DNA of 33,448 bases, from assembly GCA_029288035.1 (NCBI GenBank), contig JARFPZ010000411.1, positions 1 to 33,448 on the forward strand, read 5' to 3'. This document shows, piece by piece, positions 12,505 through 33,448 of this stretch. Source of the DNA: Desulfosarcina sp. Lineage in GTDB: Bacteria > Desulfobacterota > Desulfobacteria > Desulfobacterales > JAFDCJ01. Made by a program: the position numbers and the translations under genes. Every line of letters begins with the position of its first letter. Within the stretch, counting starts at the first letter, position 1. A model generated the notes under the pieces. The model was not told the origin of the DNA, did no database searches, and was given only the letters and a program-made list of their open reading frames with translations.

Positions 12505-13458
12505 TTGCAAATATTGAGGAATGCAGCGACGGACGGGAAAATCGGCAAAATTCGTTATGGGCGGAATAATTCAATAATCGTGATTGCGGCGACGCTACTA
12601 TGTCTTGCAGCGGCCTCGATAACGATGATGAACTCTGACAACGGCAGCGCCGCCCGGTCAGAAGCTAGCGGCTACTCGATCTCAAGACAAGTTCAATACA
12701 GTTTTACGCTACAAAATAAATCCCATCGGGTGATAAAGCAAGCCGAGCTGTGGACCTTTGCACCAGTGAAACAAACAGCCAACCAACTGTGCTTTAAATT
12801 ACAGGCCAATTATCCTTACAAGCTACTGACCGATGACAGCGGCAATCAGATACTTTATTTTACCTTTGAGAATCTGGCACCTTACGGCTCCAGGGTTGTT
12901 ACCATTAAAGCCAACCTGCTTGTCACTGCCACAGCCAATCCAATTCCGTCAGGACCATCGTCCCGGGATTTGAATCCCCAAAAGTATATCGAGTCGGATC
13001 ATTCCGCCATAACCAGGATAGCGCACAAAATGCAGGCACCCGACGCATCCAAAACCATAGAAAAAGCCTTTCGCTGGGTGGCAGGCAATGTGCGTTACAG
13101 TGCTTACGCCGGCAGAGATCGCGGAGCTCTATATGCGTTGGCGCATAAAAAGGGTGACTGCACAGAATATGCAAACCTTTTTGTCGCCCTGTGCCGTGCC
13201 AACGGCATCGCCGCACGCCCAATCGGAGGCTATGTTTTCCCGCAAAGCGGCATTTTAAAGGCAAGGGATTATCACAACTGGGGTGAATTTTATAAGAACG
13301 GCACCTGGCAGCTGGCCGATCCGCAAAACCGTGTTCTGATGAGGAATGCAGCCGATTACATTGCCATGCGTATTATTCATGGATCTGAAGATGACCCGAT
13401 GGGTCCATATAATCGCTTTCGGTTCAGGGGTGAAGGATTGGAGGTAAAGATGAATTAG
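12505..13458 (+). CDS. Exported or membrane-anchored transglutaminase-like (papain-fold) protein
   Basis: The protein has 317 aa and a TTG start behind GGAGG (12496-12500). A single hydrophobic segment at residues 24-40 makes it a signal-anchor or secreted protein. Residues about 60-140 form a beta-rich N-terminal domain (YSFTLQNKSHRVIKQAELWTF). The transglutaminase-core follows with a visible catalytic triad: C219 in KKGDCTEYANLFVALCRANGIAARPIGGYV, H257 in YHNWGEF, and D272 in LADPQNR. Such enzymes cleave, deamidate or cross-link peptides outside the cytoplasm; the actual reaction here is unknown. It is followed after 246 bp by the giant repeat-protein gene on the same strand, so a surface-protein partner role is plausible. 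Confidence 0.87.
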   Translation: MQILRNAATDGKIGKIRYGRNNSIIVIAATLLCLAAASITMMNSDNGSAARSEASGYSISRQVQYSFTLQNKSHRVIKQAELWTFAPVKQTANQLCFKLQANYPYKLLTDDSGNQILYFTFENLAPYGSRVVTIKANLLVTATANPIPSGPSSRDLNPQKYIESDHSAITRIAHKMQAPDASKTIEKAFRWVAGNVRYSAYAGRDRGALYALAHKKGDCTEYANLFVALCRANGIAARPIGGYVFPQSGILKARDYHNWGEFYKNGTWQLADPQNRVLMRNAADYIAMRIIHGSEDDPMGPYNRFRFRGEGLEVKMN

Positions 13459-13681: not shown

Positions 13682-13704
13682 AATATATGTATTCAGGGGG
13701 AAAA

Positions 13705-16700
13705 ATGGGAAAGGCATACTTCTTTGATCGCCGAATAGCGCTGTATTTTACTCTTCTCCTCGGATGGGTAGCAATGAATCCGGCCGTTTCTTTTGCCGTT
13801 GACTCGGTCTGTGCCCGGGTGAAAATCGAGATCAAGCAGGAATTGACGCTGGAACGGCAGGCTTTTGATGCCCATCTACGAGTAAACAACGGCCTCTCTC
13901 ACATAGCTCTGGAAGACACTCGCGTGGATGTCTTCTTTACCGACGCAGCCGGGAACCCGGTATCGGCAAGCTCCGATCCGAACGACGGCAGTGCACTCTT
14001 CTATATTCGCCTGGATTCCATGGAAAACATCGACGATGTCAATGGCAACGGCACGATATTGCCATCAACTACCGCCGATATCCACTGGCTGATAATTCCA
14101 TCCCCTGGTTCATCCAACGGTCTGGAGTCCGGCACACTTTACTATGTGGGTGCCAGGTTTACGTATCTGATCGGCGCTCAAGAAAAGGTCACCGAAGTCA
14201 CACCCGACTATATATTTGTCAAGCCCATGCCGCAGATTTCCCTGGATTATTTTCTACCCATCGAGGTTTACGGCGATGATGCCTTCACACCGGAGATTGA
14301 ACCACCGGTGCCGTTCTCGATGGGAGTGCGGATTAACAACACCGGTCATGGCGTCACCAAAAATCTGAAGATTGATTCAGCCCAGCCTAAAATTGTGGAA
14401 AACGAGCAAGGCCTTTTGATCGGTTTTTCCATCGAGGGGAGCGAGGTCAACGGGAAGACGACCACCGACAGCCTGCTGGTAGATTTCGGTGATATCGATC
14501 CTGACAATGCAGCAACAGCCCGCTGGAACATGAGTTGCACCTTGTCCGGAAAATTTATGGAATTTTCAGCCGGTTTCTCTCACTCTGATGAGCTTGGTGG
14601 TGAGCTTACATCCTTGATATCGGACGCACGCACTCATTTTCTGGTCCATGATGTCCTGGTGGATCTTCCCGGACGCGATACCATACTGGATTTTCTGGCC
14701 AAGGACGGTGATATTTTTCGGATTTATGAATCCGATGCAGTCGATACGGAAGTCACGAATCAGTCTGGTACATCAACCCTGCAAATGAACGGTAGTACAG
14801 GCGCCTTGACGGCATCGCCAACCAACGGCTTTATGTATGTACAGCTGGACGATCCCTTCGGTGGTGAGAAAGATATCAAAGATGTCATCCGATCGGACGG
14901 TAAGATCTTCAAAACTCATAACGCCTGGATGTCCAAAATCAGAAACGAAGACCACAGCTGGCGGCACTTGATCAATCTTTTCGATGTCGATACCCCGGGC
15001 GCTTACACAATCAAATTTGCGGAAGCCGACGACATACCGTTGCCGCCGGTGCTGCAGTTCATTGAGAACCGCATCGGCCTCGAAGGTTTGCCGGTCTCAA
15101 TCTTGGTGGAAGCCGACGATCCCAACGGATCAATTCCGGTGCTTTCGGCAACACCACTTCCGGCTGGTGCAAATTTTACGGACCAGGGCACTGGAAGCGG
15201 CATCTTTAACTGGACCCCTGCATTGGGCCAGGCCGGAAGCTATGAAATCACATTTAAAGCTTCAGATGGCCTCCTGGCACATACCCGGCGAGTGGTTCTG
15301 ACCATCAATTCTATCCATGATAGCGATGGTGACGGCATGCTGGATGCCTGGGAGATGCAGTATTTTGGATCCCTGGACCGCGACGGAACCGGGGATTTTG
15401 ACCAAGATGGTATTTCCGACCTGGAAGAATTTTTATACGGCTCCGATCCGATCATCGAAGAACATGCACCGAGTACGCCTGTAATTATTTCGCCTCAGGC
15501 GGATGCCCAAGTCAACCTAATGCAACCGGAGTTGGTAATAGAAAACAGCATCGACGAAGACGGTGACGTATTGACATATGAATTTGAGGTCTTCGCCGAT
15601 CCTGCCCTAACTATCAGGGTCGCCGCCGAAGTTGAGGTTACCCAAGGCGTCACAACGACTTCCTGGAACATTCCTGAAACTCTCGACGACAATCGCCGCT
15701 ACCATTGGCGCGTCAGGGCCACCGATGGATATAGCTTCAGTTTATGGACTTACGGAACTTTCTTTGTCAATACGATCAATAATACACCCGGACCATTTTA
15801 CATCAGCAGCCCCGGAGACGACACGGTAGTTGATACCCGAACACCTGTACTGGAAGTCACCAATACCGTGGACCCGGATGAAGATGAGGTAACTTATACC
15901 TTTGAGGTCTATGACGACAATACCCTCAGCAACCCGGTGGTCTCTGGCACCGATATTCCCCAGGGACCGTATGGCAGCACCTCCTGGATGGTTGACTCTG
16001 CCCTGGCAGATAATACCTGGTATTTTTGGCGGGCCGTGGTCACCGATGATCACGGTGCCTCAACTCTAACCGCCGTGGGTTCCTTTCTGGTTAACATCGA
16101 CGCATTGGTGCCGGAAGCCCCCCAGCCGGCATCTCCGGCCACCAACAGTGATGTCTCCACCCGACAACTGGATCTGGTGGTTACCAATTCGGCGAATGCT
16201 GGAAACCACAGCTATTATTTTGAACTGGACAAAGCCGAGACCTTTGACAGCCCGGCCAAGCTTACATCCGGGGAAGTAATCGAGGGTACGGATACCACCG
16301 CCTGGCATGTCTCCGGGCTGGATGACAACACCTGGTATTTCTGGCGGGTCAAAGCCGGCAATGGATCTGGGGAAAGCGGTTGGACCCAGCGTGCATTTTT
16401 TGTCAACACCGCTAATGACGCGCCCTTTTCACCGACACTCAAAAATCCGGGCAGGCAGGCCTGGCTGGGGACCTTAACACCCGCGCTGGATTTGAGTCCT
16501 GGCATTGATCCGGAAGCCGACAACCTTTCCTACCGATTCGAAATTTACGCTGATGAGGACCTGACCACCCTCGTTGAACACGGTGTGTCCGCATCTGCCC
16601 AATGGCGAGTCCCTTCGGAATTGACCGATAAAACCCGCTATTTCTGGAGAGCCCAAGCCGAAGATGTCCACGGTCTAACCGGCAATTGGATGGATACCGC

Positions 16701-19200
16701 CTCCTTTTTTGTTAAGGATACCGGCCCCGATGAACCACCAGCCGAAATAACCGTCAACGTAGCGGCCAGCCTTGGAAGCGAACTTTCCGGCCTGAAGGTT
16801 TATGCTTTCACGGAGTTTGGCTCTTATACCGGAATAAAAGCCGTTACGGATGAAACCGGAACGGCCCTTTTTGATACCAAGGATTTCACCGATGGCAGCT
16901 ATAAGTTTCGAGTGGATTATTTGGGTTACCGTTTCTGGTCTGATTCCATCCTGTTACCAGGTACCTATCGAGCGGAGGTCGTCATCCATCAAGAAACCGT
17001 TGAGGTCACCGTGAAAACCGGCATCGGATCATTGCAGGGAGTTAAGGTATATCTTTTTTCGGCCGATGGCGCTTACCTCGGCCTCAATCAAAAGACAGAT
17101 GAAACCGGACAGGTAAGCTTTATGCTGCCCACCGGCGTATCATTTAAATTCAGAGCAGACATCCTGGGCGGAAAGTACTGGAGTGAGGATACCACCCTCA
17201 CTGCCGGTGGAGCAACCACCGTTGACCTGAATGCCGGCGGCGGTGTTTTCCAGGTGACCTTGCAAGAGGAGCCGGGTGTGCCATTGGCAGGGATCAAGGT
17301 CTATCTATTCAGCCAAAGCGGCCGCTATCTGGGGTTAAATCAGGTTTCCGATACCATGGGACACGTGGCATTTGACGTCTCCGAGGGTACCTATACCGTT
17401 CGGGCTGATTTACTGGGCTATCAATTCTGGAGTCCCGAAACCCATGTAACCATCGATACAAATATTGATTTTACCGTCGCCCACCAGGACGTCATCGTCA
17501 CCTTAGACAACGGAACTCCTGAAGTCTTCGAACCGTTGGCCGGGATAAATGTTTACCTTTTCAAGCCTTCGGGTTCATACCTTGGGAAAAACCAGGTCAC
17601 CGATGAGAACGGACAGGCTCGCTTTCATCTACCCCGCCAGCCTTATCAAATCCGGGCGGATTTTCTGGGACAACAGTATTGGTCGGATCTTTTCACCTGG
17701 ACGGACCCCATCGTCACCATCCCCATGGCCGATGTCGAAATCACCGTAACCGGAGGTGGGTTTCCCGCCCAAGATCAGGCCGTGTATGTATTTTCACCCT
17801 CCGGTTCTTATCTGGGTATCCGTCAAACCACCAACGGCGACGGCAAAGTGTTTCTCCGGCTGCCGCAAGGAGAATATCAATTCCGCGCTGATTATCAGGG
17901 TAGCCGATATTGGAGTGATGTGGAATCTGTGACAGCCGCTCAGCAGAATTCAGTCACGATATCAACCGGTGGCGGTAGTTTTGCCGTATCGATTTTAAAA
18001 TCAAATGGTCAACCCCTGGCTGGTATCAAATGTTACGTATTCAATGCGAGTGAGGCCTATCTGGGCTTGTATGGCGCCACCGATGGCAATGGACAAGTTT
18101 TCTTTGATCTGGCAGATGGAAATTTTAAGTTCCGGGTAGATTATCTGGGCAGCCGGTTTTGGAGCAATGAAGTTTCGGTACCGCAGGTATTGTCGACGAA
18201 TGTGGCCATTGAGCACGAAACTGTGGAGGTCAGTGTGACCACGAGTGCGGGTGCTGTCAAAGGTGTGAAGATTTATCTTTTTTCTGCCAACGGCACTTAT
18301 CTCGGCCGCTATAAAGAGACGGATACAGCGGGCAATGTGTCCTTTGATCTTCCGGTTGACAGCGATTATCAGTTCAGGGCCGATATTCTGGGCAGTAAAT
18401 ACTGGAGCGATGTGCTTAGGGTTTCCAGCGGCTTAACCAATTTTATACCGATTGACGCCGGCGGGGGGGTGTTGCAGATGACTGTGCAAAAGGACGAGGA
18501 TTTACCCATGCCGGAATTAAAGGTCTATCTCTTCAATACCGCCGGCACCTATCTTGGCCGGAGCGCGACAACCGATGCCACCGGAAAGGTAGAATTCAGG
18601 GTACCAGAAGAAAGCTACATGCTGCGGGCGGATTACCTCGGCTACCAGTTCTGGAGTGAGGAGATTTTGGTAGTCGAAAATACGGTTATGGAGATGCCGA
18701 TACCCCACCGGCCGGTTGAAATTACCGCACAGGGATCTTTTCAAGGCATGTCGGCACCCATTGAAGGAATCAAGGTCTACTTGTTTTCCCCGACAGATAC
18801 ATATCTGGGTCAATCTAAACTCACCGATGCAGACGGCAAGGCCATTTTTGACTTGCCTCAGAAGAGCTACAAGGTGCGAGTGGATTATCTGGGCTACCAA
18901 TTCTGGTCCGAGGCTTTCCAGTCAGACGATACAACGGTGACGATAGGTCGGGGCTTGGCCGAAATTCACGTCCAGCGTTCCGGCAACGATGTCGCCGGAG
19001 CCAAGGTCTACCTGTTCAGTGAAAACGGTTCTTATCTCGGATGGAATGAAATCACCAACCTAACCGGTATCGCTGAGTTTGTGTTGCCTGATCGTGCATT
19101 TAAGTTCCGCATTGATGAAAATGGTGAGCAACACTGGACCCCGCTGATTCAAATCCATGCCGGTCAGCAAAGTATGATTGATTTTGATCTTGATCATTAA
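13705..19200 (+). CDS. Giant secreted repeat protein (Ig/Fn3-like modules plus ten C-terminal ~80-aa repeats)
   Basis: The protein has 1831 aa. The ATG at 13705 is chosen because it follows AGGGGGA; the ATG at 13687 has no ribosome site. Residues 1-30 are a Sec signal (ending NPAVSFA). Residues ~30-445 are unrecognised and beta-rich. ~446-536 is a cadherin/He_PIG-like Ig module (SATPLPAGANFTDQGTGSGIFNWTP). 539-583 holds calcium-binding DxDGDG loops. ~590-1010 has four Fn3-like modules, each with a (Y/F)xWR strand and an FFVN-type end. ~1014-1831 is ten tandem repeats with the pattern G(I/V)KVYLFS, YLG, TD-x2-G, FR(A/V)DYLG, then F/Y-WS, ending at the C-terminus. It is a likely surface or extracellular structural protein. 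No anchor motif or catalytic domain is visible. Confidence 0.93.
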   Translation: MGKAYFFDRRIALYFTLLLGWVAMNPAVSFAVDSVCARVKIEIKQELTLERQAFDAHLRVNNGLSHIALEDTRVDVFFTDAAGNPVSASSDPNDGSALFYIRLDSMENIDDVNGNGTILPSTTADIHWLIIPSPGSSNGLESGTLYYVGARFTYLIGAQEKVTEVTPDYIFVKPMPQISLDYFLPIEVYGDDAFTPEIEPPVPFSMGVRINNTGHGVTKNLKIDSAQPKIVENEQGLLIGFSIEGSEVNGKTTTDSLLVDFGDIDPDNAATARWNMSCTLSGKFMEFSAGFSHSDELGGELTSLISDARTHFLVHDVLVDLPGRDTILDFLAKDGDIFRIYESDAVDTEVTNQSGTSTLQMNGSTGALTASPTNGFMYVQLDDPFGGEKDIKDVIRSDGKIFKTHNAWMSKIRNEDHSWRHLINLFDVDTPGAYTIKFAEADDIPLPPVLQFIENRIGLEGLPVSILVEADDPNGSIPVLSATPLPAGANFTDQGTGSGIFNWTPALGQAGSYEITFKASDGLLAHTRRVVLTINSIHDSDGDGMLDAWEMQYFGSLDRDGTGDFDQDGISDLEEFLYGSDPIIEEHAPSTPVIISPQADAQVNLMQPELVIENSIDEDGDVLTYEFEVFADPALTIRVAAEVEVTQGVTTTSWNIPETLDDNRRYHWRVRATDGYSFSLWTYGTFFVNTINNTPGPFYISSPGDDTVVDTRTPVLEVTNTVDPDEDEVTYTFEVYDDNTLSNPVVSGTDIPQGPYGSTSWMVDSALADNTWYFWRAVVTDDHGASTLTAVGSFLVNIDALVPEAPQPASPATNSDVSTRQLDLVVTNSANAGNHSYYFELDKAETFDSPAKLTSGEVIEGTDTTAWHVSGLDDNTWYFWRVKAGNGSGESGWTQRAFFVNTANDAPFSPTLKNPGRQAWLGTLTPALDLSPGIDPEADNLSYRFEIYADEDLTTLVEHGVSASAQWRVPSELTDKTRYFWRAQAEDVHGLTGNWMDTASFFVKDTGPDEPPAEITVNVAASLGSELSGLKVYAFTEFGSYTGIKAVTDETGTALFDTKDFTDGSYKFRVDYLGYRFWSDSILLPGTYRAEVVIHQETVEVTVKTGIGSLQGVKVYLFSADGAYLGLNQKTDETGQVSFMLPTGVSFKFRADILGGKYWSEDTTLTAGGATTVDLNAGGGVFQVTLQEEPGVPLAGIKVYLFSQSGRYLGLNQVSDTMGHVAFDVSEGTYTVRADLLGYQFWSPETHVTIDTNIDFTVAHQDVIVTLDNGTPEVFEPLAGINVYLFKPSGSYLGKNQVTDENGQARFHLPRQPYQIRADFLGQQYWSDLFTWTDPIVTIPMADVEITVTGGGFPAQDQAVYVFSPSGSYLGIRQTTNGDGKVFLRLPQGEYQFRADYQGSRYWSDVESVTAAQQNSVTISTGGGSFAVSILKSNGQPLAGIKCYVFNASEAYLGLYGATDGNGQVFFDLADGNFKFRVDYLGSRFWSNEVSVPQVLSTNVAIEHETVEVSVTTSAGAVKGVKIYLFSANGTYLGRYKETDTAGNVSFDLPVDSDYQFRADILGSKYWSDVLRVSSGLTNFIPIDAGGGVLQMTVQKDEDLPMPELKVYLFNTAGTYLGRSATTDATGKVEFRVPEESYMLRADYLGYQFWSEEILVVENTVMEMPIPHRPVEITAQGSFQGMSAPIEGIKVYLFSPTDTYLGQSKLTDADGKAIFDLPQKSYKVRVDYLGYQFWSEAFQSDDTTVTIGRGLAEIHVQRSGNDVAGAKVYLFSENGSYLGWNEITNLTGIAEFVLPDRAFKFRIDENGEQHWTPLIQIHAGQQSMIDFDLDH
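15319..15450 (+). other. Calcium-binding DxDGDG loops within the giant repeat protein
   Basis: Residues 539-583 read DSDGDGMLDAWEMQYFG, then DRDGTGDFDQDGISDLEEFLYGSDP. These are spaced D-x-D-x-D loops of the thrombospondin type-3/EF-hand-like kind that bind Ca2+ outside cells. They form a hinge between the Ig-like module and the Fn3-like array. Confidence 0.75.
16744..19197 (+). repeat. Ten tandem ~82-residue repeats, arranged as two blocks of five
   Basis: Each unit is a small beta-sandwich-like module resembling carboxypeptidase-regulatory/prealbumin-type domains: VEVTV, L(A/Q)G(I/V)KVYLFS, GxYLG, TDxxGxxxF, FR(A/V)DxLG, (F/Y)WS(D/E). Unit boundaries pair up at a distance of five. Units 2 and 7 both open ETVEV(T/S)V and lead into a GGG. 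Units 3 and 8 follow that GGG and end in a histidine-containing hinge. Units 4 and 9 carry an extra PLAG/PIEG lead-in. Units 5 and 10 are the short ones. Confidence 0.85.
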
Positions 19201-19290: not shown

Positions 19291-20238
19291 ATGAAGTTTA
19301 CCATAACATCTAGATGTAAATATCTTCTGATCGCAGCCGTCCTGATACTGGGTTTGTCAATCCAGGCGCCGGCTGACGCTGGAAACCATGGGACCAATAA
19401 GGCCGATAAGTCCTATACTCGCTTTTCTGCATTACCGGAGAAGTTATTCAAACGCAAACTCAAGCAGCATGATCCTTCCTATGCAATATCACCGGAAGCA
19501 GTTCTTTACAAATTGAAGCAAACTCATAATATCACCCTCGTAGATGTACGCAGCCCGGAAGACTTCAAGCGATTGCATATACCCGGATCTCTCAACATTC
19601 CTTTGCATGCAGTCAAAACCAAAGGCTTTTTAAGGTCTGTTGCCGTTGTCCTCATCCATGAAGGGTTTCAATACAGTTTGCTGGAAACCGAATGTCGTCA
19701 ACTTACGGATATGGGTTTTAAAGTGCTTATTTTGGACGGAGGTCTACCTGCCTGGGAACGCAGCGGAAATAAAGTTGCTGGAGACCTATTTGCGCTGGAA
19801 GAAATGCAAATAGTATCTCCTCAGGTTTTATTCCAAGAAAAAGATTACGAAAACATCCTGTTACTCGACATCTCCCCGGTTAAGTCAAACATCTCCAGGC
19901 AGTGGATGTCTCACTCAAAGCACCTGCCGGTTTCGGCTGAAGCGGGCGAATGGGCAAGAAAAATTGAGCGGACTATCGCAAGCCATAAGAACCAACCATT
20001 TTTCTCTATTCTGGTTTTTAATGAAACCGGCGATGGCTATGGCAGAGCAAATAAAATACTATCCAATCTGGGCCTAAATGCTTTTTTTCTACAAGGCGGT
20101 GTTGCCGGTTATCGTCGATACTTGAGAAATTTAATGCTTTCCTGGCAGCCACTGGATAGCCGTATCAAGACAAGCCGGAAATGCAGAACCTGCGTCAAAG
20201 AGAATGAAGAAAACATCATCACCCAAGTATGCAAATAA
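19291..20238 (+). CDS. Exported double-rhodanese protein lacking both catalytic cysteines
   Basis: The 315-aa protein has a Sec-type N-terminus (residues ~10-30, ending PADA) and GGAGGG before the ATG. Domain 1 (~65-160) is clearly rhodanese-like: ITLVDVRSPEDFKRLHIPGSLNIP, then GFKVLILDGGLPAWERSG. Its active-site loop reads IHEGFQY, so Ile122 occupies the cysteine position (C-x2-G pattern) and the arginine is Gln. Domain 2 (~172-285) ends AFFLQGGVAGYRRYL, and its loop NETGDGYGRA has Asn244 in the cysteine place. Sulfur transfer by the usual mechanism is therefore unlikely, and a binding or structural role is more plausible. The C-terminus has CRTC and a final Cys. It lies 90 bp after the repeat-protein gene and 35 bp before the RHS gene, probably in one operon with the latter. 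Confidence 0.85.
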   Translation: MKFTITSRCKYLLIAAVLILGLSIQAPADAGNHGTNKADKSYTRFSALPEKLFKRKLKQHDPSYAISPEAVLYKLKQTHNITLVDVRSPEDFKRLHIPGSLNIPLHAVKTKGFLRSVAVVLIHEGFQYSLLETECRQLTDMGFKVLILDGGLPAWERSGNKVAGDLFALEEMQIVSPQVLFQEKDYENILLLDISPVKSNISRQWMSHSKHLPVSAEAGEWARKIERTIASHKNQPFFSILVFNETGDGYGRANKILSNLGLNAFFLQGGVAGYRRYLRNLMLSWQPLDSRIKTSRKCRTCVKENEENIITQVCK

Positions 20239-23200: not shown

Positions 23201-26200
23201 CATCGAAAACAGCAGTCTTTCGATTAGAAACGGCAATCAGGTGGAAGTTGCCGGGACCTGGTCCGATTCCGACGGACATCAACTGATCTTTAGCCCGGCG
23301 ACTATATTGGAGGAATCCTCTTATACGATCGCTCTTAAACTAGTCGATAGTCTGGGCAATCAGGGTGCGGCTGCCCAATATCATTTTACCGTGGACACGA
23401 TCCCGCCGCCGGCTCCCCAAATCCACCCGGTCACATCACCGACCCACAACCCCACCCAGGAGGTAACCGGCACCAAGGAAGCCTATGCCGCCATTCTGGC
23501 AAATGGACAGCAGGCGGTGGGTCACACAGCCTCAACCGACTGGCAACATACATTGAACCTGGTCAGCGGCCAGAATCAATTTACATTTATCTCTAGAGAC
23601 CGGGCCGGTAACCAGGGTGAGGGGATTAGCGTCGGCATACTATTCGACGATATTCCGCCACCGCCCGTGAATACCCTTGGGGTAAATGGGCAGGGTGACG
23701 GTACCACGGTCTATCTGGACTGGAACGGTTATGACGAGACCGGCCATGGCGATATTGCTTTTTATCGGATCTATGCTGAAACCGCCGCCTTCAACAATGT
23801 TTCCGGGCTCACCCCACACAGCACGACGGCTGCCGGACACTTTTCCGCCACCGCACAAAACCTCGCCCGCAGCACCACCTATTGGTTTGCCGTCATCGCT
23901 GTGGACGCCATGGGCAATGCCCAATCCACGGTCAATCCTGTCTCCGGTGCACCTCTGGACGTGGTACCGCCGGAAGATATCGCAAACCTTCAAGTCCAAT
24001 CATTCGCCGATCGTCTGGTATTTACCTGGAATCATTCGGCCGACACTGCCGGCGACTTGGCCGGCTACCGGATCGCTTTTGGCGATGACAATACCGGCCA
24101 GATTATTCCGGCCACCCAAAATTCCTATGAAAAGACCGGTCTGACTGCAGCCGCCGGCTACCTGTTCAAGGTCTTTGCCATTGATAACGACACCAACGAG
24201 AGCAACGCTGCAGCAATCACGGGGGTAACCTTGCTGCCGAATCCAGGCAACACAGCAGCAGATCCCCAAAGCGGGTATGTGGATCTCTCCTGGAATGGGG
24301 CGACGCCATTGCAATATGTGAGGCACTATGCTGTTTATAAAAGCGAAAGCGGTTTTTCAACAATCGAGGGGCTGAGCCCGCTTCTTACCACGACAAACAC
24401 AACCGCCAAAGTCGCCGGTTTGACCAACGGCCAAACTTACTATTTTGCGGTGACCACCGTAAACGTCTCAGGCGGCGAAGATAAAGCCGTGTCCACCGTC
24501 TCCGCCACACCGTCGCAGGATACTTCAGGCCCTGAAATCAGCGACGTAAAAATTGACGGATCCATTCTGGTCAGCGGCCACATCCTGAACAAACCGGCGA
24601 CCTTCACCGCGGTTGCCACCGACCCGGCCGGAATCAGCCGGTTGGAGTTTGCCATCGATTCAGATCCGATCCGCACCGATTACAATCCCGTATATTCCTG
24701 CTACTGGAATGTCGTACCCATCGACAACGGTAATTACACCCTGACCGTCACTGCCTATGACACCCTGGGCAACAGCTCGACCCTTGACGTTGCTCTGGTG
24801 GTCGCCCTGGAACCGCCCGCAGCCCCTGTTATCAACCAGCCGGTGAGTGGCATTCTCACCAATCAACCGACGATGATGGTTTCCGGCCTTGGAGAGAAAT
24901 ATACCGACGTCATGGTTTATAATAATTCGACGGAAGTCGGTAATTGGGCAGCGGTGGACGCTCTCGGCAATTTCAGCGCTTCTGTAACTCTGGCTGAAGG
25001 TGAAAACCGCTTCCAGGCCGCCGCCCGCAACCCGGCCGGCATCGGACCGTTAAGCAGCCAGGTGCTGGTCTCCCTGGACACCAGCCTGCCGGCAAGTCCC
25101 ACAAACTTGATGGCCCAGGCCAAACAAGGCGGGATTGTGCGCTTAACCTGGCAGCCGCCGTCGGATACATCGGTTTCTGGCTATAACCTGTATCGCAGCC
25201 ACAGCCCTTTCAGTGACACCCAGGCAGCCGCCAAAATTAATGCCAGTCTAATAACGATGCCTGTATTTGAAGACCTCCCCCCAGCTGACGGTATCTGGTA
25301 TTACCACGCCACCACCATCGATATTGCCGACAATGAAAGTCAGCTCTCCAATGAGGCGCCGGCAGTGTCCGATAGCACCGCACCGCGAGCGGTGTCCATC
25401 GATTATAGTTCCCGGGGGCCCTATGACCCGGCCGGCGAAAGGATGGCGGCGGCAACCGTAAACCTAATACTCACGGTCAATGAGCCGCTGCAGACCACCC
25501 CTTATTTAAGTATTGTTCCCCAGGGTGGGATGCCGCTTGCGGTGGCGCTGACCAAGGACACGGATCTGACCTATACCGGATTCTTTGTAATATCCGCCAC
25601 CACACCCGGCGGAACGGCCCATGCTATTTTTTCCGGTCGGGATAGTGTCGGCAACCGCGGCACTGAAATTGATGCCGGTGCTTCCATCCAAATCGATACC
25701 GCCGGGCCGGCGATCCGTCGTCTGGTGATTGACCCCTCATCTCCCATTAAAAATGATGAGCAGGTGCCGGCAACGGTCACGGCAATAGTCGGTCTCAATG
25801 AACAGGTAAAGAACGGTACCCGACCGCAGCTAGCTTACCTGCTCTCAGGGGAAGGGCGTCAGACCAGCGACATCGATCAATTGAGCGAAATGAGTCCCCA
25901 GGCCGGCGATGCTCAGACCTGGCAGGTCCAATTCACCCTGCCGGCGGATGCCGGCCTGAACGAATCGGAAACATTTTATTTCATCTACCAGGGATCCGAT
26001 GATCTGGATAATCTCAATGACAGGATTCTAACCGATAATATTTTCCAGGTCTACCAGAGCGACCTGCCGCCCCTCGAGCCACCCCAAGGACTCACCGCTG
26101 TGGCGCTGCCAGAGGGGCGGATCCGGCTGACCTGGAATGCCGTGGATGAGGCCGTGGGGTATCAATTATACCGCAAGGCACCGGGGGAAAGTGAGTTAAT

Positions 26201-29200
26201 CGAATATCAGCGTCTTGACCTGGTTGTAGCATATACGGACCCAACCGCAGTTGACGGCCCTTATACCTATACCGTGGCCAGCATTCGCCGGCAAAACGAC
26301 CAGGAAGCTGTCAGCGGTCAGAGTGCCGAGGTGACCGTAACGTCTGATTCAATGGCGCCCGACGCACCTCATAACTTGGCTTTGGAACTTGTGGCCAACG
26401 GCATCAAGGCCGAGTGGTCGCCACCGCCGTTTACCGAAGCAATGACATATTCGCTCTACCGCGCAGCAGCATCTGAAATTATTTCGGTGGCAGGCCTCGA
26501 TCCCCTGGCCATCGGTATCGCCCAAACCCTGGTGGTGGACCCCATGCCGTCACCATCGGCCCATTGTTATGTGGTGACTGCGGTGGATGCCGTGGGCAAC
26601 GAGTCGCCGCCGTCAAACTCATTTTACCTGAACTTCCAACTCTTACCAATATCCGGTATCACCGTCCTGCAAGCGGACAACGAGCCGCCCCAGGTGACCT
26701 GGACGCATCCGGGGGGCGATATTGCCGGCTATGACATTTACCTGGGGACGGAAGATGAGCCTGTCAAGCTAAACCCAACCCTGTTGACCGGGCATTCGTT
26801 TATCGATACTGGTTACGGCCGGGATGAACGACGTTACACGGTAACTGCCCAAGATAACAACGGGGTAGTCAGTCTGGGACGTAGCATCCGCTTGCCGAAA
26901 CTTTCAGCAGCACTTGTTGAGGGTGTCCGGATCAGACGCGGCATTATGAATCGCCTGGATTATGTCGTCTCAAACGAGGGATCGGACCGGGTGGCGAGCA
27001 TCCGGCTGAAGGTCACGGTGGGTTCCCATGATCATACCTCGGATATATTCAGTCTCGATCCGGGCACATCCCGTACAATCCCCGTGGTCGTGGGCGGCTA
27101 TGATGATTTGGAAGGCATGGCCGCATTGACTACAACTATCGAAGTCACCCCGCAATCCAATGAAATCGTTCAGATAGTCCGCAGCAATTACATCGAAGTT
27201 GACGACGGTATGTTGGTGCTGCAGATCTTAAACGAGGAATTCACCCGGGCGGCATCGGGCCGGGTTCGATTTACCCTGGAAAACACCGGTGAAGCCGACA
27301 TCGAGATCATTACCGCCCGGAATTCGGGCACGTCCCCATCCGACCAGATCATATTCTATCTGGTCGATGAAGACGATAATGTGCTCACTTCAAAAGCATT
27401 TACCCAGACCGTCGGCGATAAGATTGTCACCCTATCAAACCGCAACACCGTGGCCCGCATTGGTGTCGGCCAAACCTTTACCTCGGACTTTATCACCCTC
27501 CCGGTCCCGGCCAATGCGCCCGATGACGTCACCCTCCGCCTGGATATCGCCAATGTTTATTATCACCAGGATCAGACCACCCAGGTCACCATGAAAGGGC
27601 TTTCCTCCACCCATCAAATTGCCATGGTGGATACAGCCTACTACGGTGAGGTGGCAAATATGGTTCCTCAAATCTCCACCGGCGATCAGGACATCATGAT
27701 CACCGGGCAAGCCGTGGAAAGGGTCAGCGGTGATCTAATGGCAAATGTACCGCTGAACCTCGTGATCACCATAAACGGCTTTGAACGTGCCGCCAGTGTC
27801 TACACCGGTGAGGATGGTATTTTTAATCACCATTTCAAGCCGCTGTCAGGTGAATCCGGAGTCTACGAGGTACGAGCGGTGCACCCGGACCGCACCGACA
27901 AACCGGTCCATGGTCAATTTGTGATCAATCGGGTGAGCGTCACGCCGACGGCCATCAATTTGAACGTACCTAAAAACTACAGCAAAACCGTCAGCATCCG
28001 GGTGGACACCGGTGAGGGGACTGCCGTTAACAAGCTGCGTCTGGAATACAATCGGGAAGATCAACCCACCGAAGAATATCCCCCGGGTGTGCACCTGACC
28101 ACCGGCGCCGCCAATGCCTATTTGGACGGCAACAAAACGGCCTGGCTGCCATTTACGCTGTGGGCCGATAATACGGCGGAGACCTCCTCAAAGCTGGTGC
28201 TCAAGGTGAAAAGCGATGAATCCCATCCAGACGCCTGGGGTACGGTAACGGTCAACACGCAATTTTCCGAGGCCAGCCCGGTGCTGCACTTTTCACCGAA
28301 TCACGTGGAAACCGGCACGTCTCGTGAAAAAGCGGTCACCGAAACCGTGGTGCTGGAAAATAAGGGTTTGGCGCCACTCAATGACGTCAGGTTGTCACTG
28401 CACAACCAAGACGGCAGCCCGGCCCCGGGCTGGGTCTATCTGACCTCATCTGCGGACCAGGGCGTCATTGAGGTGGGCGATCGACGTAATCTCGGCATTG
28501 CGTTTTCTCCCACCTCCGCCGTGGCCGAAGGTAATTATGCCTTTGGTCTGCGGGTCAACGCTTCCAACTATGCGGCCACCACCATCAATTTGCATCTGGC
28601 CGTAACCCAGCAAGGCCGGGGCAATGTCTTGTTTAAGGTTTCCGACATATATACCGGCACCCTCAACCAAAACGGCGATCTCATCCAGGGACTTGGCGAT
28701 GCCAGGATAAAACTCCAAAATGAGGCGGTCCTGATCGAAGAATACACCGGCTACACGGACAGCTTCGGTGAAGCCTGGTTTGAAGATATCCCTTCCGGTC
28801 GGTACAAGTGCCGCATTACCGCAAAGAATCATCAGGATTATATCGGCCGTATCTGGATCAAACCGGGGGTCTCCCTGAATGAAGATGTTTTCCTCGACTA
28901 CAACCTGGTGACGGTGGAGTGGGAAGTCAATGAAATCACCATTGAAGACAAGTATGAAATTGTATTGACCGCCACCTATGAAACCGATGTACCGGCGGCG
29001 GTGGTAGCCGTCCAGCCCGCTTCGATCAGCCTGCCGACCATGAAAGCCGGCGATGTGTTTAACGGTGAATTCACCCTGACCAATTACGGGTTGATTCGCG
29101 CCGACGACCTGGAAGTGAGTTTGCCGCCCGACGATCCGTATTTCATCTACGAGCTGATGGGCGGTCTGCCGGACAGCCTTTCCGCCAAGGAACAAATAAT

Positions 29201-32200
29201 CGTCCCTTACCGGGTCACCTGTATCAAATCTCTCGATCAGCAGGATGACGGTCTGGCCACCGGCGGTGGCTGCCATAACTACCGAACCTGCGCGGTGGTG
29301 GACTATGGCTATGTCTGTGCCAACGGGCAGTCGACCAAGGCCGCCATCAATCATTGTTGGACCCGAACCTATGGCGAATGCACCACTGGCGGCAGTATCA
29401 TCATTAGCGCCGGCACCGGCGGCGGCACCTGGAGCGTCGGTGGCGGCACCGGTAGCGGCACCATCTCCAAACCGGCCCCCAAGCCCAAGACCATTCAGGG
29501 CGTGACGTGCTTTCCGAAGCCGACGCTCAAAGAATGGTTTTTTGAAAAATGGGGCGCTTTAAAGGAAACCTATAAAAATTGGAAACAAAACGTCGGCTGC
29601 TCGGTGAACACGGTCACACGGCAATACAATGACGATGCCGTCGATTTGGCCGTCAAAGTACCCGGTGGGATGGTGTCTGTCCAGCGCTGGTTTTACAACG
29701 ACCAGTGGTCATGGGGGTATACCCGCAGCAATCTCAAATTTAATTTGAGCTCACTGGGAGGGGGCATTGAATCCATAGATAAGGGTGGCGTCGTTTACGA
29801 GGCTTCTGCAATCGACGCGAACCTGTTTGTCCATGATGTTTATAAAATAAGCCGACGTGATGATGCCTATCGATGGGAAGATAAACGTGGCTCCTGGAAA
29901 GAATATGACGCAACCGGTCGTTTGACGTCTTTCGGTAACCGCACCGGTGTTTTAGGTCGGCTGTTATACGAGGAGGGAGAAAACGGCGAGCCCATCGGTG
30001 TGGCGGATCGCAATGACCAACAGGTACTCTGGTATGAGTATGACGACGATGATCGACTGCAGGCCGTACATGATGTTGATGACCGCAGGGTAGAGTACAG
30101 TTACACCAACGGCCGTTTGACGGCCGTAAGAGATGTGCTGGGCAACGATACGTCTTACCAGTACGACAGCAAGGGACGGTTGAGCATGACCCTTGATGCC
30201 GCAGGGCGCCCGACGATCATTACATATGACAGCTATGGCAACGTTGATTCCGTATTGGATCAGGATGGTAACGGCCATGGCTTTGAGTATGATTACGATG
30301 AAGCCAAAAGTGAACTATATGCCAGGATAACGTCCACATCCGGCAGAATAAAGGAAGTCTGGTACGACAAAGACGGTGAAACCAGAAAAGTTGCCATCAA
30401 TGGCCGCATCTTGCAAAAGATCGAAAAAGATGGTCGCAATCTCATCATCACCGGTGAGAAAGGCAAGGTAACCCGCAAGGAATTTGATGAGTGGGATAAT
30501 CTCACCCGTGTCATTTATCCTGACGGCACCTCGGCATCCTTTGAATACGAGCATAAATTCAACAAACCCACCCGCTCCGTCGACCAGCGAGGAAATGTCA
30601 GTGAATATGAGTATGACGAGCAGGGTAATCTCATCACTAAGACCGAGGCGGTCGGAACCCCTGTCGAAAGAGTGACAACCTACACCTATGATGAAACCAG
30701 CCGGCTGCTGACCGCGACCGTTGAGGCCGATGACGACACAGAAGCCGCCACCACGACGTTCGCCTACGACGAAAACGACAATGTGGACGCCATCACCGAC
30801 CCTGAAGGCAACAAGACTTTATTTTTGGGATATGATAATTCCGGCAACCTGCTGAAGCTGCACGATCCTCGCGGGTATGAGTGGACCTTTGAGTATGATG
30901 ATCTGGGACGGTTGACATCCCAGAGCGATCCCCTCGATCACATCACCGCTTATGAGTATGACGGGGCTAACAACCGGACAGCCGTCATCAATGCACTACT
31001 TAAACGCTTTGAGTTTGAATACGATGACCATAACAATCTGATTAAAGCCATCGATCCTTACCAAAAGGTTATCACGACCGAGTACAACACCGACCATCTG
31101 CCGCTAAAGGTGATTGATCAGGAAGGCAAGCTTTCTGAAGTAACACATGATAACGAAGGCCGTACTATTGAAGCCATCGACGGTGCGGGCAACGAAATCG
31201 TCTACCATTATGATGAAACGACGGCGACATCGGTCTCCTCTTACAAGCCGGTGCGCATCGACTATCCGACCTTCAGCCGAAAATACGACTACGACGACCT
31301 TGAGCGCGTCGTCCAGGAAGTCGATATATTGGATGAAACCACCAGCCGCACCCGCAGCTATGTTTACGATCCGGCCGGTAATATCATCGCAGCCTCGAAT
31401 GAGCAGGAAAGCACCACCCAGTACGAATACGATGCCCTCAATCGTCTGGTAAAAACCTCCGATCCCCTAAACGGTGTCACCAAGCGCAGTTATGATGACA
31501 GGGGAAATCTGATCGCCATCGAAAACCCCAATAACGGGATCATCTACTATGAGTATGACCGCAACAACCGTCTGATCAAAACCATCCGGCCGATGCTGCA
31601 GGAAACCGCCTACGAATATGATGCCTCCGGCAACCGCACAGCGGTCTATGACACCAAAGGGCAAAAGATTGCCTACGATTACAATCCTCTGAACCGTCTG
31701 ACACGGTGCAGGTACTACGCCGTCGGCGATCATGCCAACCCGGTCAAAATCGTCGATTTTACCTACGATAATCTGGGCAATATTAAAACCTACGACGACG
31801 GTACCACATCCGCTGAATATACTTACGATGATCTCCAGCGCAAGATCGGTGAGGTAGTCGACTACGGACCGTTTACCAGCAGTATCTCCTACGCCTACTA
31901 TGCCAATGGTCTGAAAAAGACCTTTAGCGGCCCGGATGGTGCAGCCATCGACTACATCTATGATGAAAACAACCGCATCAGCCGCATTGACATTCCCGGC
32001 CAGGGACAAATTACTTACAATACCTATCAGTGGAACAGCCCCACCCGCATGACGCTGCCCGGTGGCAGCGCCACCGACTACAGCTACGATCCCTTAATGC
32101 AGATTGAGTCGATCGCAACCGAGGATCCGGGTCAAAACCCGCTCATGACCCGCGATTATACCTATTCGGCGACAGGCGACATCACGACGAAAGACACCGA

Positions 32201-33448
32201 GCACGGCAACTACACTTACCAATATGACGAGCTGCGGCGATTGTCCGAGGCCGTCAATCCGTTAGGCGCTAATGAAGCCTATAGCTATGATGCCTTGGGT
32301 AACCGTTTGACTGCCGCCGGCGTAGCGGGAGACTGGCGCTACAATGCCAACAACGAGCTGTTGGGTTATGACAACGTTTCGTATTCATATGATGATAACG
32401 GCAATACCACCCGCAAAACCCAGGGAGTCCAGGAAACTAATTACGTCTACGATGTGGAAGATCGTTTGATACGGGTAAAAGGCAACGTTGGTGACGTAAT
32501 TGCCGAATATTACTATGATCCCTTTGGCCGCCGGCTGTGGAAAGAAGTTGACGGAATACGGACATATTTTGTATACTCGGATGAAGGTTTAATCGGTGAG
32601 TATGATGAAAGCGGTGCAGAAATCCGCGGCTACGGATACGCGCCGAATTCGCAATGGAGCACCGATCCGCTCTTTTACAAACGGCAGGGCCAGTATTACT
32701 GGTACCAGAACGACCACCTGGGTACGCCGCAGAAGATTATCGAAACCAGCGGCCGGGTCGTCTGGTCGGCGCTGTATGATTCGTTTGGTAATGTTCAGAT
32801 CGAGACGTCAGAAATTACCAATAACCTGCGTTTTGCAGGCCAATACCACGATGCCGAAACCGGACTGCACTATAACCTTAACCGGCACTACGACCCCACC
32901 ACCGGTAGATATCTCAGAACGGATCCCTACGGCGAAGGCCTGAATCTGTATGCCTATGTGTTTAATAATCCCAATAGTCTGATAGATCCGCTGGGATTGT
33001 GTCTTTATAATAAAGTATCAGGATGGGTGCATGGCGGCCTGGCGGTCATTGGTTTAGTGCCTCTTCTTGGAATTGTTCCCGACCTTATTGATGCCGGTCT
33101 TTACCTGCTTCAAGCCGAGTATAGCGATGCAGCGTTGGCGGGTATTGCTGCAATACCCATAGCTGGCTATTTCGGCCGTGGGGCACAGTATGGGGTTAAA
33201 TTCGTTAAGTGGGGCTCCAAGTATTTGCCGGATGCTATTAATTTCGCGAAGAAGGCAAACAAATTAGGAAAAAACTTATACCAAAAGATATTTGAGAAAT
33301 TTTCCCCAAAGACTAGAATTTTTTGGTCTGGAAGTAGTGAAGCACGTGCCGCTGCAGAATCATTCGCTAAAGCAAACGGTGGTAAAACTCTGGAAATGAC
33401 ATTGCCAGGTAGAATATTAAATAAGGCTACGACTAAGCGAACTTATCC
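20274..33448 (+). CDS. Giant secreted RHS/YD-repeat protein with probable C-terminal toxin (3' end beyond window)
   Basis: The frame is open for 4391 codons from an ATG behind GGAGAGGAAA, with no stop before the edge. The signal peptide has a long n-region (core residues 33-49, STICA). Residues 54-540 are two beta-helix modules (PGVQIRFNPGTGLIVG, GDWKGIYF) closing in AKNNWWGDADGPG. Next come an Fn3-like module (~555-632), a CARDB-like module (~633-733), many Ig/Fn3-like modules (to ~2780) and a carboxypeptidase-regulatory-like module (~2785-2880). A Cys/Gly-rich linker (3000-3070) is followed by dozens of YD repeats (~3200-4140). The RHS core (YYWYQNDHLGTPQKI, AGQYHDAETGLHYNLNRHYD, GRYLRTDP, NLYAYVFNNP) ends in DPLGL (4238-4242). 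A hydrophobic pre-toxin segment and a charged tip follow. It is a surface polymorphic toxin by architecture. Confidence 0.95.
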   Translation, partial: MMNKQPNSSIYNQFIGGFKFYELRLQNQSTYNLFTIIAFIVILFSIPSTICAETFVSGDIRQNTTWTLEGSPYIVTGDITVASLDYSYHSDPDSVRLTIEPGVQIRFNPGTGLIVGIGFHSIAGYYGALSVQGTAESPVAFTSNAESPAPGDWKGIYFRNETHDAATLLEHCVVEYGGHTQNANIYFANANPVINNSTIRFSSSDGIYLSNSSPAIDNNTITNNSNYGISGNIYSAGFITDNTLSDNGQAAINIHPSAAGRVSGNSGSGNGQDLIRVYGGELRANSTWVKQELPFGITGDITVSSWDFSDHSNPCSVTLTIEPGVQIRFNPGTGLIVGIAFHSNAGYYGALSAQGTADSPIIFTSNAASPAPGDWKGIYFRNETHDSATLLEHCIVEYGGHTNNANLYLSNAKPTIQYNTIRNSSHSGLYINGGGSNDASIRCNNLKDNLYGVYVVNNAYPLIAGNNFLRNQIYGVNNTGTTSVNAKNNWWGDADGPGFNGDEVYGNVDYAHWLTAESDCINTPPTNNLPFEPRYPIPDSEAVRVPVLEEEQPIAVTLTWVGGDPNPWDTVVYDVYFGTDVDALELIAEAVETTTIDKTDLADGTTYYWKIVAKDDAGAETAGPVWNFTTMGDLPDLIFSDVVWNPTSDLQAGQTITFTATVENIGRGPVVDAFQVDFNIDGTSIGSKTLDSVIAAGSITQVVQSWTARTGDFGIEVMADSTGTVVESFEENNTLSAGLPNIIDPTAPELVSTVPDHNASLNDLSRIEFTLFDQFGTVDDAAVIAGVSVIDSNNQSVGFSVSENNDIFTITPDSLPLNDGTYEVSLTAIDLTGNTQSYNFSFTVDKQDPAEPVITGGTVTSGVIQARPAQNSSSSATVTLTGTCEDNTDVWINNQLTVDSGSNDWSVDMTLTQGNNSLEIWAEDAAGNRSPSVWVDVQVDSIAPIITDVAPANNSFINISPVTIMIDYQETGSGVNIENSSLSIRNGNQVEVAGTWSDSDGHQLIFSPATILEESSYTIALKLVDSLGNQGAAAQYHFTVDTIPPPAPQIHPVTSPTHNPTQEVTGTKEAYAAILANGQQAVGHTASTDWQHTLNLVSGQNQFTFISRDRAGNQGEGISVGILFDDIPPPPVNTLGVNGQGDGTTVYLDWNGYDETGHGDIAFYRIYAETAAFNNVSGLTPHSTTAAGHFSATAQNLARSTTYWFAVIAVDAMGNAQSTVNPVSGAPLDVVPPEDIANLQVQSFADRLVFTWNHSADTAGDLAGYRIAFGDDNTGQIIPATQNSYEKTGLTAAAGYLFKVFAIDNDTNESNAAAITGVTLLPNPGNTAADPQSGYVDLSWNGATPLQYVRHYAVYKSESGFSTIEGLSPLLTTTNTTAKVAGLTNGQTYYFAVTTVNVSGGEDKAVSTVSATPSQDTSGPEISDVKIDGSILVSGHILNKPATFTAVATDPAGISRLEFAIDSDPIRTDYNPVYSCYWNVVPIDNGNYTLTVTAYDTLGNSSTLDVALVVALEPPAAPVINQPVSGILTNQPTMMVSGLGEKYTDVMVYNNSTEVGNWAAVDALGNFSASVTLAEGENRFQAAARNPAGIGPLSSQVLVSLDTSLPASPTNLMAQAKQGGIVRLTWQPPSDTSVSGYNLYRSHSPFSDTQAAAKINASLITMPVFEDLPPADGIWYYHATTIDIADNESQLSNEAPAVSDSTAPRAVSIDYSSRGPYDPAGERMAAATVNLILTVNEPLQTTPYLSIVPQGGMPLAVALTKDTDLTYTGFFVISATTPGGTAHAIFSGRDSVGNRGTEIDAGASIQIDTAGPAIRRLVIDPSSPIKNDEQVPATVTAIVGLNEQVKNGTRPQLAYLLSGEGRQTSDIDQLSEMSPQAGDAQTWQVQFTLPADAGLNESETFYFIYQGSDDLDNLNDRILTDNIFQVYQSDLPPLEPPQGLTAVALPEGRIRLTWNAVDEAVGYQLYRKAPGESELIEYQRLDLVVAYTDPTAVDGPYTYTVASIRRQNDQEAVSGQSAEVTVTSDSMAPDAPHNLALELVANGIKAEWSPPPFTEAMTYSLYRAAASEIISVAGLDPLAIGIAQTLVVDPMPSPSAHCYVVTAVDAVGNESPPSNSFYLNFQLLPISGITVLQADNEPPQVTWTHPGGDIAGYDIYLGTEDEPVKLNPTLLTGHSFIDTGYGRDERRYTVTAQDNNGVVSLGRSIRLPKLSAALVEGVRIRRGIMNRLDYVVSNEGSDRVASIRLKVTVGSHDHTSDIFSLDPGTSRTIPVVVGGYDDLEGMAALTTTIEVTPQSNEIVQIVRSNYIEVDDGMLVLQILNEEFTRAASGRVRFTLENTGEADIEIITARNSGTSPSDQIIFYLVDEDDNVLTSKAFTQTVGDKIVTLSNRNTVARIGVGQTFTSDFITLPVPANAPDDVTLRLDIANVYYHQDQTTQVTMKGLSSTHQIAMVDTAYYGEVANMVPQISTGDQDIMITGQAVERVSGDLMANVPLNLVITINGFERAASVYTGEDGIFNHHFKPLSGESGVYEVRAVHPDRTDKPVHGQFVINRVSVTPTAINLNVPKNYSKTVSIRVDTGEGTAVNKLRLEYNREDQPTEEYPPGVHLTTGAANAYLDGNKTAWLPFTLWADNTAETSSKLVLKVKSDESHPDAWGTVTVNTQFSEASPVLHFSPNHVETGTSREKAVTETVVLENKGLAPLNDVRLSLHNQDGSPAPGWVYLTSSADQGVIEVGDRRNLGIAFSPTSAVAEGNYAFGLRVNASNYAATTINLHLAVTQQGRGNVLFKVSDIYTGTLNQNGDLIQGLGDARIKLQNEAVLIEEYTGYTDSFGEAWFEDIPSGRYKCRITAKNHQDYIGRIWIKPGVSLNEDVFLDYNLVTVEWEVNEITIEDKYEIVLTATYETDVPAAVVAVQPASISLPTMKAGDVFNGEFTLTNYGLIRADDLEVSLPPDDPYFIYELMGGLPDSLSAKEQIIVPYRVTCIKSLDQQDDGLATGGGCHNYRTCAVVDYGYVCANGQSTKAAINHCWTRTYGECTTGGSIIISAGTGGGTWSVGGGTGSGTISKPAPKPKTIQGVTCFPKPTLKEWFFEKWGALKETYKNWKQNVGCSVNTVTRQYNDDAVDLAVKVPGGMVSVQRWFYNDQWSWGYTRSNLKFNLSSLGGGIESIDKGGVVYEASAIDANLFVHDVYKISRRDDAYRWEDKRGSWKEYDATGRLTSFGNRTGVLGRLLYEEGENGEPIGVADRNDQQVLWYEYDDDDRLQAVHDVDDRRVEYSYTNGRLTAVRDVLGNDTSYQYDSKGRLSMTLDAAGRPTIITYDSYGNVDSVLDQDGNGHGFEYDYDEAKSELYARITSTSGRIKEVWYDKDGETRKVAINGRILQKIEKDGRNLIITGEKGKVTRKEFDEWDNLTRVIYPDGTSASFEYEHKFNKPTRSVDQRGNVSEYEYDEQGNLITKTEAVGTPVERVTTYTYDETSRLLTATVEADDDTEAATTTFAYDENDNVDAITDPEGNKTLFLGYDNSGNLLKLHDPRGYEWTFEYDDLGRLTSQSDPLDHITAYEYDGANNRTAVINALLKRFEFEYDDHNNLIKAIDPYQKVITTEYNTDHLPLKVIDQEGKLSEVTHDNEGRTIEAIDGAGNEIVYHYDETTATSVSSYKPVRIDYPTFSRKYDYDDLERVVQEVDILDETTSRTRSYVYDPAGNIIAASNEQESTTQYEYDALNRLVKTSDPLNGVTKRSYDDRGNLIAIENPNNGIIYYEYDRNNRLIKTIRPMLQETAYEYDASGNRTAVYDTKGQKIAYDYNPLNRLTRCRYYAVGDHANPVKIVDFTYDNLGNIKTYDDGTTSAEYTYDDLQRKIGEVVDYGPFTSSISYAYYANGLKKTFSGPDGAAIDYIYDENNRISRIDIPGQGQITYNTYQWNSPTRMTLPGGSATDYSYDPLMQIESIATEDPGQNPLMTRDYTYSATGDITTKDTEHGNYTYQYDELRRLSEAVNPLGANEAYSYDALGNRLTAAGVAGDWRYNANNELLGYDNVSYSYDDNGNTTRKTQGVQETNYVYDVEDRLIRVKGNVGDVIAEYYYDPFGRRLWKEVDGIRTYFVYSDEGLIGEYDESGAEIRGYGYAPNSQWSTDPLFYKRQGQYYWYQNDHLGTPQKIIETSGRVVWSALYDSFGNVQIETSEITNNLRFAGQYHDAETGLHYNLNRHYDPTTGRYLRTDPYGEGLNLYAYVFNNPNSLIDPLGLCLYNKVSGWVHGGLAVIGLVPLLGIVPDLIDAGLYLLQAEYSDAALAGIAAIPIAGYFGRGAQYGVKFVKWGSKYLPDAINFAKKANKLGKNLYQKIFEKFSPKTRIFWSGSSEARAAAESFAKANGGKTLEMTLPGRILNKATTKRTY
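20496..20813 (+). repeat. Direct repeat copy 1 (beta-helix module, period 666 bp)
   Basis: This segment matches 21162-21479 at a constant offset of 666 bp (222 codons) with no visible indel. Long identical DNA runs include CAGATTCGCTTTAATCCGGG and GACTGGAAGGGGATCTATTT. Most differences are single bases, so the duplication is fairly recent or is kept similar by gene conversion. Confidence 0.85.
21162..21479 (+). repeat. Direct repeat copy 2 (beta-helix module)
   Basis: This is the second copy of the 318-bp segment that starts at 20496. Both encode the GDITV...TIEPGVQIRF...APGDWKGIYFRNETHD...LEHC(V/I)VEYGGH stretch of the beta-helix. The sequence following each copy diverges quickly. Confidence 0.85.
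29271..29510 (+). other. Cysteine/glycine-rich linker ahead of the YD shell
   Basis: Residues 3000-3036 hold five cysteines (3000, 3006, 3015, 3028, 3036). They are followed by a flexible tract of GG/GTGGG and SKPAPKPK. More cysteines sit in GVTCFPKP and VGCSVN. This separates the Ig/Fn3 stalk from the YD region and could be a disulfide-locked hinge. The function is inferred. Confidence 0.6.
29880..32690 (+). repeat. YD-repeat (RHS) array
   Basis: A few dozen units of the G-x-x-x-x-x-x-YD-x-x-G-R/N-L type occur (for example YEYDEQGNLI, YEYDDLGRLT, YEYDALNRLV, YDYNPLNRLT). In known RHS and TcC proteins such arrays fold into a hollow shell that encloses the C-terminal toxin (established for the family). 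Confidence 0.92.
33000..33448 (+). other. Probable variable toxin tip of the RHS protein (incomplete)
   Basis: After DPLGL the protein has a hydrophobic segment with Gly/Pro pivots (GGLAVIGLVPLLGIVPDLIDAGLYLL ... ALAGIAAIPIAGYFGRG), as in pre-toxin segments of many polymorphic toxins. A soluble tail follows (IFWSGSSEARAAAESFAKANGGKTLEMTLPGRIL) and runs off the window. The tail resembles C-terminal domains I recall from other RHS toxins, but I cannot name its activity. The immunity gene would be expected just downstream. Confidence 0.65.

Follow-up and report, generated by a model that had tools for sequence, protein, structure and literature searches.

A conserved module of four exported genes in Desulfosarcina, most likely an undescribed system exporting RHS toxins

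The right half of a 33,448-nucleotide stretch of Desulfosarcina sp. DNA (one whole contig, JARFPZ010000411.1, here G000:C512; hereafter the window) is filled by four plus-strand genes that encode, in this order, a transglutaminase-superfamily protein (TG), a giant protein bearing a domain here called GN (the GN giant), a double pseudo-rhodanese (RH) and a second giant of the RHS class (the RHS giant). The four genes form one conserved module and most likely constitute a single undescribed system that exports antibacterial toxins. We lean towards a type-II-secreted polymorphic RHS toxin system in which GN serves as scaffold, and TG and the pseudo-rhodanese as a maturation pair. As part of the same overall model, and with equally modest confidence, the locus would be the form that a widespread system of secreted polymorphic toxins takes in deltaproteobacteria, the toxin tip being seen in relatives only. 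The features on which this reading draws are the following:

12505..13458, plus strand: TG, exported transglutaminase-superfamily protein, 317 residues (open reading frame (ORF) with a TTG start; Pfam Transglut_core)
13159-13161, 13273-13275 and 13318-13320, plus strand: TG triad residues C219, H257 and D272, an intact Cys-His-Asp set
13687..19200, plus strand: GN giant, 1837 residues, with export signal, GN domain, Ig-type modules and C-terminal CarboxypepD_reg-type repeats (ORF, Pfam)
13801..14709, plus strand: GN domain, ~300 residues, all-beta, of no known family (alignment of relatives, model)
19291..20238, plus strand: RH, exported double pseudo-rhodanese, 315 residues (Pfam Rhodanese, structure model)
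20229..33446, plus strand: RHS giant, at least 4406 residues, open at the contig end (ORF, Pfam, NCBIfam)
26931..29231, plus strand: RN region of the RHS giant, ~770 residues, before the shell (alignment, distribution)
29526..32999, plus strand: YD/RHS core, ending with Rhs_assc_core and DPLGL (Pfam RHS_repeat, RHS; NCBIfam TIGR03696)
33000..33446, plus strand: variable C-terminal tip, start only (149 residues), cut by the contig end (sequence after DPLGL)

The case for a module rests on how regularly its parts travel together. Profiles of TG, RH, GN (~300 residues) and RN (~770 residues) were searched against 58 relatives and 296 other genomes sampled from Desulfobacterota. Strong TG homologues occur in seven of the relatives (G000, G005, G021, G030, G031, G044 and G045), six of which also hold RH and all of which hold GN and RN, by weaker or partial matches in G021, G030, G031 and G044; the remaining 51 hold GN once and RN twice. 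Among the 296 other genomes, TG and RH are each found in five, GN in nine and RN in eight (2-3% of 297 Desulfobacterota). Across the sampled genomes of the phylum, the association is strongest for GN with RN (Fisher p 7e-15), followed by TG-RH (8e-8), TG-RN (1e-6), TG-GN (2e-6) and RH-RN (1e-4), p-values that are indicative only because the genomes share descent. The genes do not always come in the same order. The window shares TG-GN-RH-RHS with G031, G045 has RH-TG-RHS-GN, and in G005 a TG-RH pair comes before a second TG-GN-RH set. That the same members are retained in permuted orders argues that the set is under selection. In G005, a short GN fragment (G005:C1171:9467-9712, L041) separates the first RH from the second TG, suggestive of a duplicated and decayed module copy.

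A scan of named genomes gave 80 further loci, with carriers that include Desulfosarcina cetonica, Desulfatitalea alkaliphila, Thiothrix caldifontis, Motiliproteus, Spongiibacter, Microbulbifer and Chitinolyticbacter, and the module genes also adjoin each other in metagenome-assembled genomes (MAGs) assigned to Verrucomicrobia, Lentisphaerae, Elusimicrobia and Myxococcota. Within the fetched flanks, and with the window counted, TG is accompanied by RH in 57 of 81 loci and by GN in 44 of 81. Where an RH-TG pair was first seen without GN, a search of the whole genome recovered GN in 15 of 20 cases, several of them, in betaproteobacteria, on the same contig as the pair and just past the 10-kb flank. 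The distances TG-RH, TG-GN and RH-GN correlate at r ~0.71, to which shared descent contributes. Neighbourhood comparison was the check that the preliminary description of this DNA had set for its four-family grouping, and the outcome that would undo it, families rarely found together, fails against genome-by-genome co-occurrence and adjacency in Desulfobacterota, Beta- and Gammaproteobacteria and other phyla. A divergent subtype was also met, in which an RN-bearing giant without counted YD repeats accompanies a GN protein with no TG recognised nearby (L172, G277:C27; L173, G093:C75; L174, G231:C135; L176, G254:C363); in L173 the next gene carries a rhodanese domain (2153-2932, minus strand).

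Within the window the genes are separated by 228 bp (TG to GN giant) and 90 bp (GN giant to RH), and RH and the RHS gene overlap (-10 bp). The genes upstream of TG, one choline-kinase-like and others for transporters, show no apparent relation to the four. The earlier claim of four consecutive plus-strand genes with export signals holds: all four ORFs are present, and each protein begins with an N-terminal hydrophobic stretch, as judged by hydropathy only. By the same measure, the cargo appears to carry the Sec-type export signal expected of a type II secretion substrate, and all four proteins would enter the periplasm via Sec.

TG matches Pfam Transglut_core with an E-value of 6.4e-23 and 81.5 bits (cut-off 23). 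Among 74 aligned relatives, the triad cysteine is present in all, and the histidine and aspartate in 73 each, with one gap each. Domain match and triad together mark TG as a predicted Transglut_core superfamily member, and the intact triad of the preliminary description, C219/H257/D272, is borne out and conserved in relatives. Its best PDB sequence match, 3isr, is named a putative cysteine protease. In the proposed system TG would covalently mature the two giants, through transamidation or a specific cut; the cross-linking or trimming of the large proteins that the preliminary description had suggested may accordingly hold.

The proposed partner of TG is the pseudo-rhodanese. RH matches Pfam Rhodanese (E 4.5e-14), and its structure model is a confident double rhodanese fold (pLDDT 88) with Foldseek matches, in which both catalytic cysteine positions are empty. 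An active rhodanese places its catalytic cysteine in the active-site loop; here that residue is absent in 48 of 48 sequences, its position being taken mostly by N, G, D or H, and in the window by H123 (19657-19659). RH is thus a rhodanese by fold and catalytically dead, and sulfur transfer is ruled out for want of the catalytic cysteine. The preliminary description had it as a dead rhodanese without cysteines. The first part stands, and the second is wrong because RH holds five cysteines, one of which, C298 (20182-20184) near the C-terminus, is kept in each of the 44 relatives whose sequence extends that far. RH lies immediately 5' of TG in 39 loci, in 34 of which the two overlap or are no more than 10 bp apart, a spacing that was taken from the longest possible ORF starts and so inflates overlaps. 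RH may act as a non-catalytic partner or substrate adaptor of TG.

The GN giant contains CarboxypepD_reg and Ig-type modules by Pfam, and the CarboxypepD_reg-type repeats at its C-terminus (16900-19197 in the window) vary from none detected to as many as 16 across loci L051-L130. Its GN domain, compared over 30 members from several phyla, is 49-76% identical to the window copy with 46 invariant columns; it has no Pfam match, no NCBIfam match in that stretch and no PDB relative by sequence. The model of the domain is all-beta (pLDDT 82). Its Foldseek matches are generic Ig-sandwiches with TM of at most 0.31 and were not accepted as homology. The RHS giant runs from an export signal through a beta-helix, CARDB/Big/fn3 modules and the RN region to the YD core and the tip. 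RN, ~770 residues long and 35-53% identical between relatives and the window copy, shows weak Pfam traces only, and by its distribution is specific to the four-gene module and its divergent GN-RN kin. In the window RN and the YD core are fused in one protein; several gamma- and betaproteobacteria encode RN in a gene of its own. In two gammaproteobacterial loci with a separate RN gene (L125:7585-16665 and L096:12491-19522), the next gene starts a YD-type protein that seems to have a signal peptide of its own. In G021:C36, regions homologous to RN and to GN share one ORF, left open by the end of the contig (L175:12170-16858), which suggests that RN and GN may act together. The scaffold for the RHS toxin would be twofold, comprising the RN region of the RHS giant itself and the separate GN giant.

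The RHS giant matches Pfam RHS_repeat (E 4e-70) and RHS (E 2.8e-12) and NCBIfam Rhs_assc_core (TIGR03696, E 1.5e-23), and an RHS/YD core that ends in Rhs_assc_core is the hallmark by which it is classed as a putative polymorphic RHS toxin. A variable C-terminal toxin would sit at the end of the YD shell. In the window, the 149 residues past DPLGL have no Pfam toxin match and the tip is cut by the contig end; a contig continuing it was searched for and none was found. It is the relatives that supply the tips. The RHS protein of Thiothrix caldifontis ends in PT-HINT and Ribonuclease domains, with Barstar as the next gene; that of Chitinolyticbacter albus ends in PT-HINT and Tox-REase-9, with a next gene that matches DUF4304 weakly, below the cut-off; and that of a Moraxellaceae MAG has Ntox16 as its tip. 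By these domains the three are polymorphic toxins, and short genes follow RHS in several loci in a placement resembling that of immunity genes. The reading of the RHS giant as a toxin, already made in the preliminary description, thereby gains the support of relatives with identified tips, one with an adjoining Barstar gene, the window's own tip being cut. Killing is a part of the model that we infer.

Linkage to a type II secretion system (T2SS) is an addition to the preliminary description, which had not named one. In two betaproteobacterial genomes (G351 and G358), a single strand carries in succession the genes that bear RN and YD, a short immunity-like gene, one like glutaredoxin, then GN, a set of T2SS-like genes, RH and TG. 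The T2SS-like genes comprise F, E, a secretin and pseudopilins, with a G-type pseudopilin in G351. The same run occurs in G349 and G350, where RHS is cut by the contig end, making four betaproteobacterial genomes in all. The glutaredoxin-domain gene between the short post-RHS gene and GN (L161:13181-13555, L163:18526-19083) might act on conserved cysteines of GN and RH. The secretin of this machine bears TPR and cohesin domains. As a specific marker of the module, a cohesin-type secretin was rejected, as the class contains secretins scoring 560-680 bits for which no link to TG was shown; the Polaromonas MAG that holds L106 (G350) has three more cohesin-type secretins, L156 (C22), L158 (C57) and L159 (C59). 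Canonical T2SS genes adjoin TG in three other loci (L102, L078 and L092). The genome of the window encodes a GspD-type secretin and GspE on another contig (G000:C632), and a congener carries a fuller set (G005:C132). Export across the outer membrane would be by a T2SS-type machine, dedicated and in the same gene run in betaproteobacteria, and the general T2SS of the genome in this organism.

Each known system to which the locus may be compared shares some of these parts. The closest precedent is a set of RHS toxins with an inactive N-terminal transglutaminase domain in which at least one residue of the triad is lost (Zhang et al. 2012, PMC3482391). Exported RHS proteins, variable toxin tips and an association with a transglutaminase-fold domain are common to both, but there the inactive domain is fused to the toxin N-terminus, whereas the TG of this module has a gene to itself, keeps its triad intact and conserved, and is accompanied by RH and the GN giant. 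The RHS giant itself has no transglutaminase-domain Pfam match, so that neither the fused domain nor the lost triad of those toxins is found. Bcn-A, an RHS bacteriocin of Xanthomonas perforans, is a 1398-residue toxin with a dedicated immunity gene and three required small accessory ORFs (124, 100 and 290 residues), and its activity is lost in a mutant of the T2SS secretin (xpsD) (PMC7259588). The toxin class is shared and the need for a T2SS secretin and the immunity gene are features of Bcn-A, but no TG, pseudo-rhodanese or GN giant is described for it, and the likeness drawn here is one of description. The betaproteobacterial runs resemble T2SS and type IV pilus-like machines in their T2SSE, T2SSF, T2SSG-type pseudopilin and Secretin domains, and differ in that the cohesin of their secretin is C-terminal, beside TPR, and the operon ends in RH and TG rather than in T2SS parts. 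A YD/RHS shell with a variable C-terminus is common to type VI secretion system Rhs toxins and Tc-type toxins as well; both were set aside, as the RHS giant has a hydrophobic N-terminal export stretch instead of any PAAR, VgrG or SpvB/TcB Pfam domain. PMC13274458 was likewise dismissed as a precedent, since transglutaminase, rhodanese and RHS repeat appear together there only as unrelated genes in a mutation table. In the open-access literature, a scope outside which most subscription journals and preprints fall, no paper was found on a separate intact-triad TG with pseudo-rhodanese, GN and RHS. The locus is filed with the polymorphic RHS toxin systems, among which, per that literature, the combination of a separate intact TG with RH and GN appears to be new.

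Other accounts of the same genes have to be weighed. The giants may instead be adhesin or matrix proteins that TG cross-links to each other or to the envelope. RHS would in that case be a shell for display, and deltaproteobacterial members, this one among them, would kill secondarily or not at all. Both giants do abound in Ig, fn3, CARDB and beta-helix modules, several pseudopilins alongside PilM/N/O-like parts might allow the betaproteobacterial machine to assemble a fibre at the surface, and neither YD repeats in the divergent GN-RN subtype nor a toxin domain in the window was seen. Such a surface structure is nonetheless unlikely, given three relatives that end in three different known toxin domains, one beside Barstar, and the immunity-like short genes after RHS in several loci. 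That the four genes are chance neighbours, each with an unrelated exported function, might be read from the differing order among lineages and from the 228 bp between TG and GN in the window, but it is extremely improbable and was rejected on co-occurrence and linkage in many lineages and on the correlated distances.

Somewhat unlikely, too, is that TG is mainly a releasing peptidase, cutting the RHS protein or GN to free a toxin or surface complex and making no isopeptide bonds. The fold family includes peptidases, the best PDB match, 3isr, is named a putative cysteine protease, and some tips bear a self-cutting PT-HINT, by which processing belongs to this toxin class; yet PT-HINT would already give release in the loci that have it, and cleavage and transamidation are not separable by sequence. 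A more specific form of the preferred toxin-export model is tentative and, taken whole, doubtful: in the periplasm an active TG, guided by RH, would covalently join the GN giant to the RN part of the RHS toxin, and the assembled rod would reach the surface through a T2SS-type machine, a dedicated one in betaproteobacteria. The class would be defined by GN and RN as new domain families.

Several points weigh against the toxin-export model as applied to this organism. Neither the fetched flank of the window nor that of most deltaproteobacterial loci contains a T2SS gene, so that T2SS export here is inferred from relatives, and a T2SS elsewhere in the genome says little because such systems are common. 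Given the divergent GN-RN subtype, neither TG nor the YD shell is an obligatory partner. Many of the genomes that carry the module are MAGs. The contig end that truncates the window's tip also puts the position of a downstream immunity gene beyond the sequence, and TG activity and contacts between the proteins are predictions.

How Sec-dependent RHS toxins cross the outer membrane of Gram-negative bacteria is poorly understood, and the conserved cluster, in which toxin, scaffold and maturation enzymes adjoin a T2SS-type machine, makes the question directly testable in cultured isolates. It also highlights two large uncharacterised extracellular regions, GN and RN, a pseudo-rhodanese that is both secreted and conserved, and an enzyme of the transglutaminase type that is likely to have dedicated substrates.
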